Source: an uncultured Chitinophaga sp.
GTDB taxonomy: Bacteria > Bacteroidota > Bacteroidia > Chitinophagales > Chitinophagaceae
Length of the DNA stretch: 64,000 bases
Direction: 5' to 3'
NCBI RefSeq assembly: GCF_946479755.1
Contig: NZ_CAMLHC010000022.1
Span: 68,374-132,373 of the forward strand
Shown here piece after piece: positions 52,012 to 55,536 of this stretch (positions are counted from its first letter, which is position 1; each line of letters starts with the position of its first letter). The translations under genes were made by a program, and so were the position numbers. The notes beneath the pieces were generated by a model. That model made no database searches. It had not been told where the DNA came from and was given only the letters and a program-made list of their open reading frames with translations.

Positions 52012-52701
52012 TTATCCGTGGGTATTCCGGTTAAGTTGCAGGATAAGATCCGGGTCGGGGCAGTTCTGGAGGTATTTGTCGCGCTCACTGTAGCGGCATA
52101 CGCCGGGATAGTCGCCCCGGTAATGCATCATGTCAATGATCACCTGGAAATGCAGGTGGGGCGGCCAGCCACCGTTTTCCGAAGGCGTACCAAACCACGC
52201 GAACTGCTGCCCGGCGGCAACGGGCATCTTCTCATAAAGCCCCTGCAGGTTGGAGATGCTGAGATGGCCGTATAAGGTATGGAACGTATAGCCGTCCAGC
52301 TGATGCTGAAGGATAATAGTAGCGCCGTAATCCCCAAAATCGTCGTTGAAGCGGAAACTGTGCACATGGCCATTGAGCGGGGCCGACACCGGTGTTTCGG
52401 CGGCGCCCCATACATCGATGCCCAGGTGCAGCCGGCGCGGCTCTTCGCCGGCATCGAAATGAGGACTGACGGCATAGATGGTGCGATGTTCGTTATACCC
52501 TCCTATGCCCAGCCGGCAGCCGCTGTCGGCGAGCGTATGGGTGATATAGGAACAAAACCGGTCTATGTTATTCAGAACAGGCTTGGTAAGGGTCGTGTTG
52601 TTGGCAGTAAAATCCATGACCAGCAGCTGTTCGTCGGGATGAAGCAGCGTGATCACGGGTTGGAAGGTGGATTGATGTTGTTTGAGTACCTCCTGTAACA
52701 T
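52012..52701 (-). CDS. M23-family peptidoglycan endopeptidase-like protein
   Basis: A 229-residue protein with the LytM/M23 core: first zinc ligands in RRLHLGIDVWG (HxxxD), then FHTLYGHLS and PPHLHFQV (HxH). These residues are intact, so metal-dependent peptidase activity is likely. No signal peptide is obvious at the N-terminus (MLQEVLKQHQSTFQP), which is unusual for an enzyme that cuts cell-wall cross-links; the start might be wrong or the protein may act on another substrate. It is transcribed alone, divergent from the Lgt-like gene. Confidence 0.85.
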   Translation of the reverse strand: MLQEVLKQHQSTFQPVITLLHPDEQLLVMDFTANNTTLTKPVLNNIDRFCSYITHTLADSGCRLGIGGYNEHRTIYAVSPHFDAGEEPRRLHLGIDVWGAAETPVSAPLNGHVHSFRFNDDFGDYGATIILQHQLDGYTFHTLYGHLSISNLQGLYEKMPVAAGQQFAWFGTPSENGGWPPHLHFQVIIDMMHYRGDYPGVCRYSERDKYLQNCPDPDLILQLNRNTHG

Positions 52702-52745: not shown

Positions 52746-53528
52746 GTGTATAAAATAATCAGTTACCCCGTGGTGTATCCTGTTTATGTGTCTGTTGGTT
52801 CCCTTCATCTTCCGTTACACGCGATAACGGAGACATTAGGTATGTTTATCGGTTTCCGCTATTTCCTTTTCCTGCGCCGGCGCCAGGGCGACCGGGTAGA
52901 CAGCAGCAATCGTATCTGGTCTATCATCGGGGCTACCTTCGGTGCTTTGCTGGGCAGCCGCCTGCTGGGAGCGCTGGAAAATCCGCCCGGACTGTTGCAG
53001 GCCGATAACCTGCTGTTATATATCTACCAGAATAAAACCATTGTGGGGGGCCTGCTGGGTGGGCTGATAGGAGTGGAAACCATCAAAAAGGCGGTAGGAG
53101 AGCGGCAATCTACCGGCGATCTGTTTACCTATCCGCTGATACTGGCTATGATGATAGGCCGTATCGGCTGTTTCAGCATGGGGGTGTACGAAGAAACCTA
53201 TGGGGTGCCTACCACGCTGCCGTGGGGGATGAACCTGGGAGATGGCCTGCTGCGGCACCCGGTGGCGCTATATGAGATTGTTTTCCTGTTGCTGCTATGG
53301 CAGCTGCTGCGCTTGATAAGCCGGCGTTATACGCTGGTCAGCGGCGCCCGCTTTCAACTGTTCATGATCGGGTACCTGCTGTTCCGTTTTATGCTGGATT
53401 TTATCAAGCCCGGTTACCGGTTCGCTTTTGGTCTCGGCTCCATACAACTGGCCTGCCTGGCCGGACTATTTTATTATGCACCTGTTATTATTTCCCCATC
53501 ACGATTAATTGAGAAACAATATGCCTGA
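52746..53528 (+). CDS. Lgt-like membrane protein lacking the catalytic histidine
   Basis: A 260-residue polytopic protein of the prolipoprotein diacylglyceryl transferase family. Shared landmarks: GGLLGG (about residue 101), MIGRIGCF (about 137-143), RHPVALYE and LFMIGYLLFRFMLDFIKPG. In E. coli Lgt the essential His103 precedes GGLLG; here that position is Val100 (TIVGGLLGG). The usual GNFxNxE after GR is also changed (GCFSMGVYEE). It is therefore a paralogue rather than the housekeeping Lgt, and probably moves a different group onto or from a membrane lipid. The start is uncertain (GTG at 52746). Its end overlaps the radical SAM gene by 8 nt, so the two are translationally coupled. Confidence 0.8.
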   Translation: MYKIISYPVVYPVYVSVGSLHLPLHAITETLGMFIGFRYFLFLRRRQGDRVDSSNRIWSIIGATFGALLGSRLLGALENPPGLLQADNLLLYIYQNKTIVGGLLGGLIGVETIKKAVGERQSTGDLFTYPLILAMMIGRIGCFSMGVYEETYGVPTTLPWGMNLGDGLLRHPVALYEIVFLLLLWQLLRLISRRYTLVSGARFQLFMIGYLLFRFMLDFIKPGYRFAFGLGSIQLACLAGLFYYAPVIISPSRLIEKQYA

Positions 53529-54927
53529 GAAAAATTACACGTATTACGACTTCACGGTAAGCATCTGTAGCACCTGTCTGCGGCGTGTAGACGCGAAAGT
53601 GATCTTTGAAGACAACAAGGTTTTTATGGTAAAAACCTGCCCCACCCACGGCAGGGAAAAAGTGCTCATCGCCACCGACATCGACTATTATAAAAATACC
53701 CGCAACTATAATAAACCATCGGAAGCTCCGCTCAAAACCAATACTCGTACGCATTACGGCTGTCCGTATGACTGTGGCCTCTGCCACGATCATGAGCAGC
53801 ATTCCTGTCTTTCGGTGATTGAAGTAACGGACCGCTGTAACCTTACCTGCCCTACCTGCTACGCGATGTCTTCGCCGCATTACGGCCGTCACCGCACGCT
53901 GGAAGAGATAGAGCAGATGCTGGATATCATCGTTGCCAACGAAGGGCAGCCCGACGTAGTGCAGCTCAGCGGCGGGGAGCCGACGATCCATCCGCAGTTT
54001 TTCGAGATACTGGACATCGCCAAAAAGAAGCCTATTCGTCACCTGATGATCAATACCAATGGTATCCGTATTGCGAAGGATAAGGAGTTTACAGCCCGGC
54101 TGGCCACCTATATGCCCGATTTTGAGGTGTATCTGCAGTTCGACTCTTTCCGGCCGGAATCGCTGGAACGTATGCGGGGAAAAGATCTTACGGACACCAG
54201 GAAACAGGCGCTGGAGAATTTGAACGAGGTAAGCCTCAGCACTACGCTGGTGGTGACCTTACAGCGGGGCGTGAATGAAGATGAGATAGGCAGCATCATC
54301 GAGTATGCCCTGCAGCAACCCTGTGTGAGGGGCGTTACCTTTCAGCCGGTACAGGTAGCCGGCCGCACAGACGATTTTGATCCGGGTACTGACCGTATAA
54401 CGTTAACGGAAGTACGTCAACGTATACTGGAACAGTCTCCGATCTTCAACGCCCATGATATCATCCCGGTACCGTGTAACCCGGATGCGCTGGCCATGGC
54501 CTATGCGCTGAAGATTGACGGTAAAGTATTTCCGCTCACGCGTTTTGTGGACCCGGCGGTGCTGCTTAACAACAGTAAAAACACCATTGTATACGAGCAG
54601 GACGAGAAGCTGCATCAGCATGTGCTGAAAATATTCAGTACCGGCATTTCCACAGATGCGGCGGTCTGCGATATGCAGTCGCTCTTGTGCTGCCTGCCGC
54701 AGGTACAGGCGCCCGGACTGGATTACAACAATCTTTTCCGGATCGTGATCATGCGGTTTCTCGACGCCTATGATTTCGATGTGCGCGCTATCAAGAAGTC
54801 CTGCGTGCATATTGTGCATAAAGACGGCCGGATTATTCCGTTTGAAACCATGAACCTGTTCTACAGGGATGATAAAGAGGAATACCTGAAAACATTACAG
54901 GGAGAAAGAGCATCTGTTCAGTTATAA
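53521..54927 (+). CDS. radical SAM enzyme with Tes/MJ0619-like multi-cluster architecture
   Basis: A 468-residue protein. Cysteine layout: N-terminal C16xxC19 with C40PxH43 (rubredoxin-like, then Gly), C81xxxC85xxC88 (GCPYDCGLC), the radical SAM motif C106xxxC110xxC113 (RCNLTCPTC), SGGEP for SAM binding, and C-terminal Cys in VPCNP, CDMQSLLCC and KKSC. The archaeal tetraether synthase Tes (MJ0619) has this plan: a rubredoxin-like site, radical SAM cluster and auxiliary clusters, and joins lipid tails by C-C bonds. The upstream gene is an Lgt-like lipid transferase (8-nt overlap) and two small membrane proteins follow. A role in membrane lipid modification is inferred; the product is unknown. 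Start at 53521 follows the overlap; an in-frame ATG at 53509 is less likely. Confidence 0.85.
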   Translation: MPEKNYTYYDFTVSICSTCLRRVDAKVIFEDNKVFMVKTCPTHGREKVLIATDIDYYKNTRNYNKPSEAPLKTNTRTHYGCPYDCGLCHDHEQHSCLSVIEVTDRCNLTCPTCYAMSSPHYGRHRTLEEIEQMLDIIVANEGQPDVVQLSGGEPTIHPQFFEILDIAKKKPIRHLMINTNGIRIAKDKEFTARLATYMPDFEVYLQFDSFRPESLERMRGKDLTDTRKQALENLNEVSLSTTLVVTLQRGVNEDEIGSIIEYALQQPCVRGVTFQPVQVAGRTDDFDPGTDRITLTEVRQRILEQSPIFNAHDIIPVPCNPDALAMAYALKIDGKVFPLTRFVDPAVLLNNSKNTIVYEQDEKLHQHVLKIFSTGISTDAAVCDMQSLLCCLPQVQAPGLDYNNLFRIVIMRFLDAYDFDVRAIKKSCVHIVHKDGRIIPFETMNLFYRDDKEEYLKTLQGERASVQL

Positions 54928-54936
54928 ACATCGCAT

Positions 54937-55200
54937 ATGAAACCTTTTGTTAGTAAACTATTGTGGTTGCTGGGGGTGCCGCTGGTACTGGGATTGGCAA
55001 TGCTGGCGGGTGGTGAAGAAGGACTTATGAGTGCTGGTTTGATGTTAATGTTCCTTATGCCGGCCTACCTGGTGATCGGCTGTCTGCTGGCGATCTTCTC
55101 CAAGGCCAATGCGGAAACAGGCAAAGCTATGGTACTGGCTGCCGGCGTGATACTGGTGGTGGGCTTGTCCACCTGCGGTATCATCCTCGCGTCGATGTAA
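54937..55200 (+). CDS. small membrane protein of the radical SAM operon
   Basis: An 87-residue protein with about three hydrophobic segments (LLWLLGVPLVLGLAMLAGG, AGLMLMFLMPAYLVIGCLLAI, MVLAAGVILVVGLSTCGIIL). It lies 9 nt after the radical SAM gene and 18 nt before a similar small membrane protein gene. I recognise no family. It may be a membrane anchor or partner for the lipid-acting enzymes upstream. Confidence 0.65.
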   Translation: MKPFVSKLLWLLGVPLVLGLAMLAGGEEGLMSAGLMLMFLMPAYLVIGCLLAIFSKANAETGKAMVLAAGVILVVGLSTCGIILASM

Positions 55201-55218
55201 CGTTTGCAGATCAAATCC

Positions 55219-55482
55219 ATGCTTATGCGCAACTTCAGATGGAAGACGGCTTATCTCACTGCGGTCCCGCTGCTGATTTTTTTCATTGCACTGGCTATCG
55301 GCAGGGGCGATAACCTGGATACGGCGGGCATCCTGCTGGGACTGCTGGTGGTGGCCTATGGTATCGTGGGTGTCATGCTGCTGATAGCGGAGGACAAGGA
55401 AGAGGGGCTGGCGTTATTGCTATCGGGGTTTCTGATCATGCTGGTGGCGTTTATTACCGGGTGGATTATTTTAAGTATGTAA
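55219..55482 (+). CDS. second small membrane protein of the operon
   Basis: About 87 residues from the ATG at 55219; a TTG at 55204 would add five residues. Three hydrophobic segments (TAVPLLIFFIALAIG, AGILLGLLVVAYGIVGVMLLI, LALLLSGFLIMLVAFITGWIIL) in the same layout as the gene just before it, so the pair looks like an old tandem duplication. Function unknown. It ends the operon: a bidirectional terminator follows at 55501. Confidence 0.65.
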   Translation: MLMRNFRWKTAYLTAVPLLIFFIALAIGRGDNLDTAGILLGLLVVAYGIVGVMLLIAEDKEEGLALLLSGFLIMLVAFITGWIILSM

Positions 55483-55500: not shown

Positions 55501-55536
55501 AAAAGCGCGCAGGGCAGGTGCCTTGCGCGCTTTTTT
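55501..55536. terminator. bidirectional terminator between the radical SAM operon and leuS
   Basis: 11-bp stem (AAAAGCGCGCA, 55501-55511, with 55524-55534) flanked by A residues on the left arm and six T residues on the right, serving both convergent units. Confidence 0.75.

Follow-up and report, generated by a model that had tools for sequence, protein, structure and literature searches.

Among the closest described systems to the one reported here are the radical S-adenosylmethionine (SAM) enzyme Tes (MJ0619), an archaeal tetraether synthase that links lipid tails by C-C bonds, and the lipoprotein diacylglyceryl transferase Lgt. Passages of PMC9433317 describe a pocket in GDGT-MAS, a Tes enzyme, that holds phospholipid tails, and bacterial Tes homologs were reported in 2022 and are regarded as candidates for the making of membrane-spanning lipids, an activity given as unconfirmed in passages of PMC8941075, PMC9433317, and PMC11868695. 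Here, we compare the described systems with an operon in a 64,000-nucleotide (nt) stretch of DNA from an uncultured Chitinophaga sp. (contig NZ_CAMLHC010000022.1, forward-strand positions 68,374 to 132,373), hereafter called the window. The operon encodes an Lgt-like membrane protein, a Tes-related radical SAM enzyme, and two small membrane proteins. No description of this trio of protein types was found in the open-license PubMed Central (PMC) literature among the matches listed, and PMC8939145 mentions a lipoprotein diacylglyceryl transferase in passing only.

The trio proved to be conserved well beyond the window. Our preferred but tentative reading, to which we assign rather less than an even chance, is a conserved three-part membrane system in which lipid would be transferred to a Cys of the small protein and lipid tails would undergo radical chemistry.

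The operon and its conservation in Bacteroidota

A preliminary description of the window, made from the letters alone, had proposed four tightly packed genes bounded by a terminator. Their spacing and coordinates are borne out by the open reading frames (ORFs), and the terminator by a reading of the hairpin:

52746..53528, + strand: Lgt-like membrane enzyme, 260 aa; ORF with a GTG start
53521..54927, + strand: Tes-related radical SAM enzyme, 468 aa; ORF with an ATG start and an 8-nt overlap with the Lgt-like gene
54937..55200, + strand: small membrane protein 1, 87 aa, three predicted helices; ORF following the radical SAM gene after a 9-nt gap
55219..55482, + strand: small membrane protein 2, 87 aa, with a layout like that of protein 1 but lacking its conserved Cys; ORF following after an 18-nt gap
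~55503..55536, + strand: probable operon terminator, a GC-rich hairpin with a T-run, read from the letters

Genome contigs were scanned, and the best 80 named Bacteroidota loci form the basis of all counts given out of 80. An Lgt-like gene was found upstream of the radical SAM gene and on the same strand in 75 of these, and four of the five loci lacking it have at most 309 bases of upstream sequence. The gap between the two genes in the 75 linked loci was no more than 60 nt in 52 (overlaps included), between 60 and 600 nt in 12, and larger in 11. At 72 of the 80 loci, one small ORF or more has a minimum of two hydrophobic segments together with a Cys among its final 25 residues; the 80 loci include strains of Chitinophaga, Mucilaginibacter, Maribacter, and Hymenobacter. 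At one locus, a gene pair resembling HicB/HicA by eye lies between the Lgt-like and radical SAM genes (L042:4551-4977).

Co-occurrence of the two enzymes was counted across 296 sampled genomes from the phylum, with the radical SAM clade taken at an expectation value (E) <1e-100 and the Lgt-like clade at E up to 1e-25. The radical SAM clade was present in 24 genomes and the Lgt-like clade in 25, with both in 24 (hypergeometric P ~2e-34, a calculation that ignores genome relatedness). Genomes G035 and G273 carry both enzyme genes unlinked. Distant radical SAM relatives were found in two more genomes, namely G067, where the protein is Tes and there is no Lgt-like gene, and G097, whose Lgt-like gene falls below the threshold of the count. 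Linkage of the genes in relatives, on which the preliminary description had made its reading depend, is thus clear, and the 24 shared genomes and 75 linked loci together rule out linkage by chance. In the genus of the genome nearest to the window, taken as Chitinophaga, four of 13 genomes have the radical SAM gene, and the system is therefore accessory.

The terminator hairpin overlaps two of seven predicted terminator-like sites, the chance expectation for all sites being 2.5. Adjoining the operon on the opposite strand is a gene for an M23-type peptidase (window positions 52012-52701); a gene similar by eye flanks the operon at locus L002.

The small membrane proteins and their cysteine

No Pfam or NCBIfam model was matched above its cut-off by either small protein of the window. 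A profile search retrieved 196 relatives; among the 120 listed, none has a Pfam domain, and the named ones are mostly "hypothetical," with some, from one source, called "multicomponent K+:H+ antiporter subunit F." The structure model of small protein 1 was of middling confidence (pLDDT 75.8, pTM 0.42), and its best Foldseek match had an E of 2.4.

The preliminary description did not mention the conserved Cys with which the last helix ends, encoded in the window as follows:

55174..55176, + strand: codon of Cys80 of small membrane protein 1, within VVGLSTC, the lipobox-like end of the final helix

The small operon ORFs were collected with no selection for Cys; each distinct ORF had to be no longer than 130 residues and to have two or more hydrophobic segments. 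They came from 106 loci, comprising the window and 105 fetched loci in which some genomes are represented twice (e.g., L003/L052 and L009/L091). L028 and L035 were excluded because they repeat L001, as were all loci with a radical SAM score of <780 bits, and the counts omit identical sequences and pieces of Lgt-like genes. A Cys is present in the last 25 residues of 131 of the 142 operon ORFs, as compared to 62 of 117 other such ORFs from the same loci, and the motif [GSA]x[GSA]xC is present in 109 of 142 versus 10 of 117.

The residues preceding the Cys were tabulated by position for 106 sequences remaining after near-copy removal. The table is anchored on the motif Cys where the motif occurs, and hence G/S/A at -4 and -2 is partly built into it, which the charge pattern is not. 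Lys or Arg is found in 25-47% of sequences at -24 to -20 (47% at -21) and in 42% at -17, and in no more than 3% at any position from -15 to the Cys. The charged segment is followed by a hydrophobic run, I/V at -5, G/S at -4, F/L at -3, and G/S at -2, with a median of seven residues past the Cys. By the positive-inside rule, the charged end of a membrane helix is cytosolic, and the charge pattern would consequently place the Cys at the periplasmic end of the helix, where Lgt acts. Charge, hydrophobic stretch, and [LF][GS]xC stand in the same order as in a lipoprotein signal. Set beside the lipobox pattern [LV][ASTVI][GAS]C, taken from passages of PMC8689077, the small proteins have mostly F/L at -3 and G/S at -2, but mostly I/T/V at -1. 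Whereas the Cys of a lipoprotein follows an N-terminal signal, that of the small proteins lies near the C-terminus of a multi-helix protein.

Small and variable genes beside a radical SAM gene, often in tandem (two or three at 27 of the 72 loci that have a Cys protein), would also fit peptide maturation. The small proteins would then be precursor-like substrates of the radical SAM enzyme, lipidated by the Lgt-like protein. Their rapid divergence around one conserved residue fits such precursors; mean column identity is 24% in the small-protein alignment A3, whose rows were preselected for a Cys among the final 30 residues, so that its invariance there is by construction. With the topology deduced above, a radical SAM enzyme in the cytosol would be unlikely to act on the Cys directly, and we consider peptide maturation a doubtful explanation.

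The Lgt-like protein

The Lgt-like protein of the window matches Pfam LGT (PF01790) with an E of 7e-21 and 75.1 bits against a gathering cut-off of 24.9, and falls under the cut-offs of its matching NCBIfam Lgt models (at best 46.5 of 334 bits and 43.6 of 118.9 bits). Residues R143, E202, Y235, and R239 of Escherichia coli Lgt, linked to activity or to the binding of phosphatidylglycerol in passages of PMC8689077 and PMC4728403, are kept as R139, E177, Y210, and R214, and E243 and R246 have become Asp and Lys. The other replacements are H103 to Val, N146 to Cys142, Y26 to His25, and Y30 to Glu29. The catalytic set of the E. coli enzyme (H103, R143, N146, Y235, R239) is therefore incomplete, lacking H103 and N146. 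The codon replacing N146 is located as follows:

53169..53171, + strand: codon of Cys142 of the Lgt-like protein (E. coli Lgt position N146)

The retained lipid-contact residues argue for phospholipid binding. The preliminary description had this protein supplying or holding a lipid. Its role may go beyond supply, since several phosphatidylglycerol-contact residues are kept, but position 103 is non-ionizable.

The 10 examined genomes having a linked-type gene each encode at least one further PF01790 protein. When such other PF01790 proteins were compared in 11 genomes, four rows kept both H103 and N146, only one of them together with Y235. A second kind of paralog (nine rows, L130-L137 and L139) has Tyr or Phe at His103, Cys at Asn146, and no Y235, and one further row, L149, is divergent. 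In seven of the 11 genomes every PF01790 protein besides that of the linked type is without His103, and for this reason the missing His103 is not decisive; the idea that its loss marks a dead enzyme is weakened by the same count.

All 94 of the 94 Lgt-like sequences compared have H25, E29, and C142, which stand at E. coli positions Y26, Y30, and N146; Y30 and N146 belong to one hydrogen-bond network (passages of PMC4728403). This would fit an acyl relay, with Cys142-His25-Glu29 as an acyltransferase that would pass a fatty acyl group to the small-protein Cys as a thioester. The H25/E29 pair becomes Y/L, Y/V, or H/V in the deep branches, however, and C142 recurs in nine of nine Tyr/Phe103 paralogs, and such a relay appears very unlikely.

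The radical SAM protein compared with Tes, TrsS, and Mss

The radical SAM protein has Pfam matches to Radical_SAM (E 3.2e-28) and Zn_ribbon_HMPTM (E 2.3e-19). It scored 288.4 bits with the NCBIfam Tes model NF045702, under the cut-off of 450, and 331.7 bits with the TrsS model NF045646, under the cut-off of 490. TrsS, a radical SAM (seleno)protein, is the best-scoring NCBIfam model for the window protein, with a nearly full-length match, and the deep-branch proteins of L117 and L118 scored 368.5 and 317.8 bits with it, also under 490. As a positive control, the protein encoded at L120:6864-8321 in a Bacteroidota genome passes the Tes cut-off with 493.8 bits, and the 16 kb fetched around this Tes gene contained no Lgt-like gene. 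The window enzyme, in contrast, has an Lgt-like protein and small Cys proteins as its operon partners.

Every Cys motif that the preliminary description had listed for this protein is present. Three of the sites align with Tes ligand sets, and a fourth lies toward the C-terminus:

53566..53649, + strand: rubredoxin-like site C16xxC19...C40xxH43, aligned with C9, C12, C33, and H36 of GDGT-MAS
53761..53793, + strand: N-terminal auxiliary cluster site C81xxxC85xxC88 with H91, aligned with C73, C77, and C80 of GDGT-MAS
53836..53859, + strand: radical SAM site C106xxxC110xxC113, from sequence and alignment
54475..54804, + strand: C319, C390, C391, and C428, with M411 at the Met439 position, from alignment

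The fold is common to Tes over the whole length, and H91 would correspond to the conserved Tes His. At the C-terminus only one of the three Cys of the Tes CC...PFC, the putative cluster ligands of that enzyme, is aligned, and the window protein adds C319, C390, and C391. Met439 of Tes is kept as M411, and Tyr459 is replaced by Ile. C319, C390, C391, and C428 probably bind a third cluster, whose ligands would differ from those in Tes. Passages of the Tes paper name only Met439 among the C-terminal cluster residues and report that the Y459L and M439A variants of Tes are active (PMC9433317). Another of the closest described systems is Mss, the bacterial membrane-spanning lipid synthase, also a radical SAM enzyme. 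Models of Mss have been reported to share the Tes architecture (passages of PMC13274423), and it has been described as working mostly under anaerobic conditions (a passage of PMC11868695).

In a tree of 19 rows, one branch (support 88/83) parts the Lgt-linked from the unlinked rows, with the window outside the Tes branch. Group labels were available for 15 of the rows, those unlabeled being Hymenobacter, Nonomuraea, the window, and L021, and because of long branches the deep order is unsure. The preliminary description had equated the layout of the protein with that of Tes and had made its reading depend on alignment of the auxiliary Cys sites with Tes. The first holds for the whole-length architecture, and the second, with a mixed outcome, for the rubredoxin-like, N-terminal cluster, and radical SAM sets; the C-terminal Cys set departs from both, as do Tyr459, the family cut-off, and the tree position from the first. 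The cut-off, the C-terminal sites, and the tree position together rule out a plain Tes. A selenoprotein reading was likewise rejected, the TGA flagged in two homologs being their normal stop codons.

The Tes fold and the lipid-binding precedent of GDGT-MAS (passages of PMC9433317) would also befit production of free membrane-spanning or tail-modified lipids, the reading taken from the preliminary description. The Lgt-like protein would then be a lipid-holding platform that transfers nothing, the small proteins would be scaffolds or lipid-presenting subunits, and the radical SAM enzyme would join iso-branched acyl tails, for example into lipids of the iso-diabolic type. The absence of an ionizable residue at position 103 of the Lgt-like protein favors such an arrangement, as do the abundance of iso-C15 fatty acids in Bacteroidota isolates (a passage of PMC10025309) and the proposal, unconfirmed in passages of PMC8941075 and PMC11868695, that bacterial Tes homologs act in the synthesis of branched glycerol dialkyl glycerol tetraethers (brGDGTs). 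However, free lipids leave unexplained why one Cys is nearly the sole conserved feature of the small proteins. The accessory nature of the system within its nearest genus also speaks against them, as does the want of reports of membrane-spanning lipids in the carrier genera among the literature matches listed. We regard free lipids as a possible, though not a likely, outcome.

Distribution beyond the main clade

Genomes G122 and G157 encode radical SAM proteins 40% and ~39% identical to that of the window, and the Lgt-like protein of G157 is deposited under Ignavibacteria. Their gene order is radical SAM, ICMT/PEMT-family methyltransferase, DUF4395 protein, Lgt-like, and small membrane protein, the last having FGxC near its end. 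The deep-branch methyltransferase and DUF4395 genes are found at L117:7883-8951 and L118:4784-5858. The trio is adjacent in G097, Mycobacterium branderi, and Mycobacterium avium, where GxC closes the last helix of the one or two small proteins. In Nonomuraea gerenzanensis, the Lgt-like and radical SAM genes are preceded by a gene for a longer protein that has the GxC end and is proline-rich at its N-terminus. The trio spans Bacteroidota and Actinomycetota at the least. For the relatives in Mycolicibacterium vanbaalenii and Haloarcula, a methyltransferase gene adjoins, and no Lgt-like gene was found in the stretch fetched. On the M. vanbaalenii plasmid (L178:4296-9336), the Tes/TrsS-like radical SAM gene adjoins genes for a methyltransferase, CcdA, and a disulfide oxidoreductase.

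Some relatives are located on plasmids or very large secondary replicons, and when plasmids were searched with the Lgt-like protein of L118, Persicobacter and Nonomuraea were the only additions. Together with the patchy occurrence within the genus, these locations could reflect an anti-phage or stress device, perhaps spread horizontally, that alters the membrane on attack. The sole PADLOC similarity, however, was to prokaryotic viperins over residues 101-247, as expected from the shared radical SAM core, and we judge this the most improbable of the explanations offered. A known defense system was rejected on that same PADLOC result; defense genes in the neighborhood were not searched for.

A proposed route of lipid transfer and tail chemistry

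The preferred three-part system starts from what was computed, namely the trio, its co-occurrence and conservation across phyla, the folds, the Cys motif, and the charge pattern. From these we infer the Cys as acceptor, a lipid tail as substrate, and the order of steps. Acting from the periplasm, the Lgt-like protein would bind a phospholipid and move its lipid part onto the small-protein Cys, giving a lipoprotein anchored by its helix, for which cleavage by signal peptidase II would be unneeded. At the cytosolic face, the radical SAM enzyme may accommodate lipids in a Tes-like hydrophobic pocket, abstract hydrogen from saturated tail ends, and join or otherwise functionalize the tails. The small protein would end up carrying, or holding onto, a lipid that is radical-modified and perhaps membrane-spanning. 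The most specific version, in which a rewired Lgt lipidates the Cys and the Tes relative joins tails across the bilayer to leave the protein held by a membrane-spanning lipid, is an unlikely one.

A number of observations weigh against lipid transfer to the Cys. Eight of the best 80 loci are without a small Cys protein by the criterion used; three of these have at most 300 downstream bases, and at L048 the Cys lies further from the end. Eleven of the 142 small operon ORFs lack this Cys, among them small protein 2 of the window; single ORFs lack it in, for example, L001, L030, L042, and L068. In genome G018 the Lgt-like gene is of the linked type (L175:7653-8498) and stands alone, a search at E 1e-30 having given no radical SAM match, and in G035 no small Cys protein neighbors the radical SAM gene. 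The residue at -1 is I, T, or V in 68 of 106 sequences, versus the Gly, Ala, or Ser of a true lipobox, and such residues would not suit signal peptidase II. In the Lgt-like protein, position 103 is V, M, L, A, or T in 24 of 24 linked-type rows (two genomes being counted twice), none of them ionizable, and passages of PMC4728403 report that the H103A/N/Q/R/Y variants of E. coli Lgt fail to complement. Since Y235 is found in the linked type and in only one of the four His103 rows, its presence is no sign of ordinary Lgt activity in the phylum. Cys142 had to be dropped as a hallmark of the trio, given its presence in the nine Tyr/Phe103 paralogs. Finally, with a C-terminal cluster site unlike that of Tes, the chemistry of the radical SAM enzyme may differ.

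A lipid-related role, which the preliminary description had proposed for the operon, is nevertheless supported as its most economical reading and is kept. The Lgt-like protein may do more than supply lipid. As judged from the sequences, the trio appears to modify membrane lipids or proteins in a manner that is so far undescribed.

The Lgt relative and the cysteine-tipped small protein set part of the radical SAM family apart from Tes, and these partner genes offer a testable handle on it. A caution follows, in that such genes should not be counted as evidence of brGDGT producers. The small Cys proteins are singled out here as an unannotated protein family, and the system is found in cultivable hosts, including Chitinophaga, Mucilaginibacter, Maribacter, and Hymenobacter. 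If the proposed transfer of lipid to the small-protein Cys is true, the trio would constitute a previously unrecognized protein-lipidation pathway in at least the Bacteroidota and Actinomycetota.

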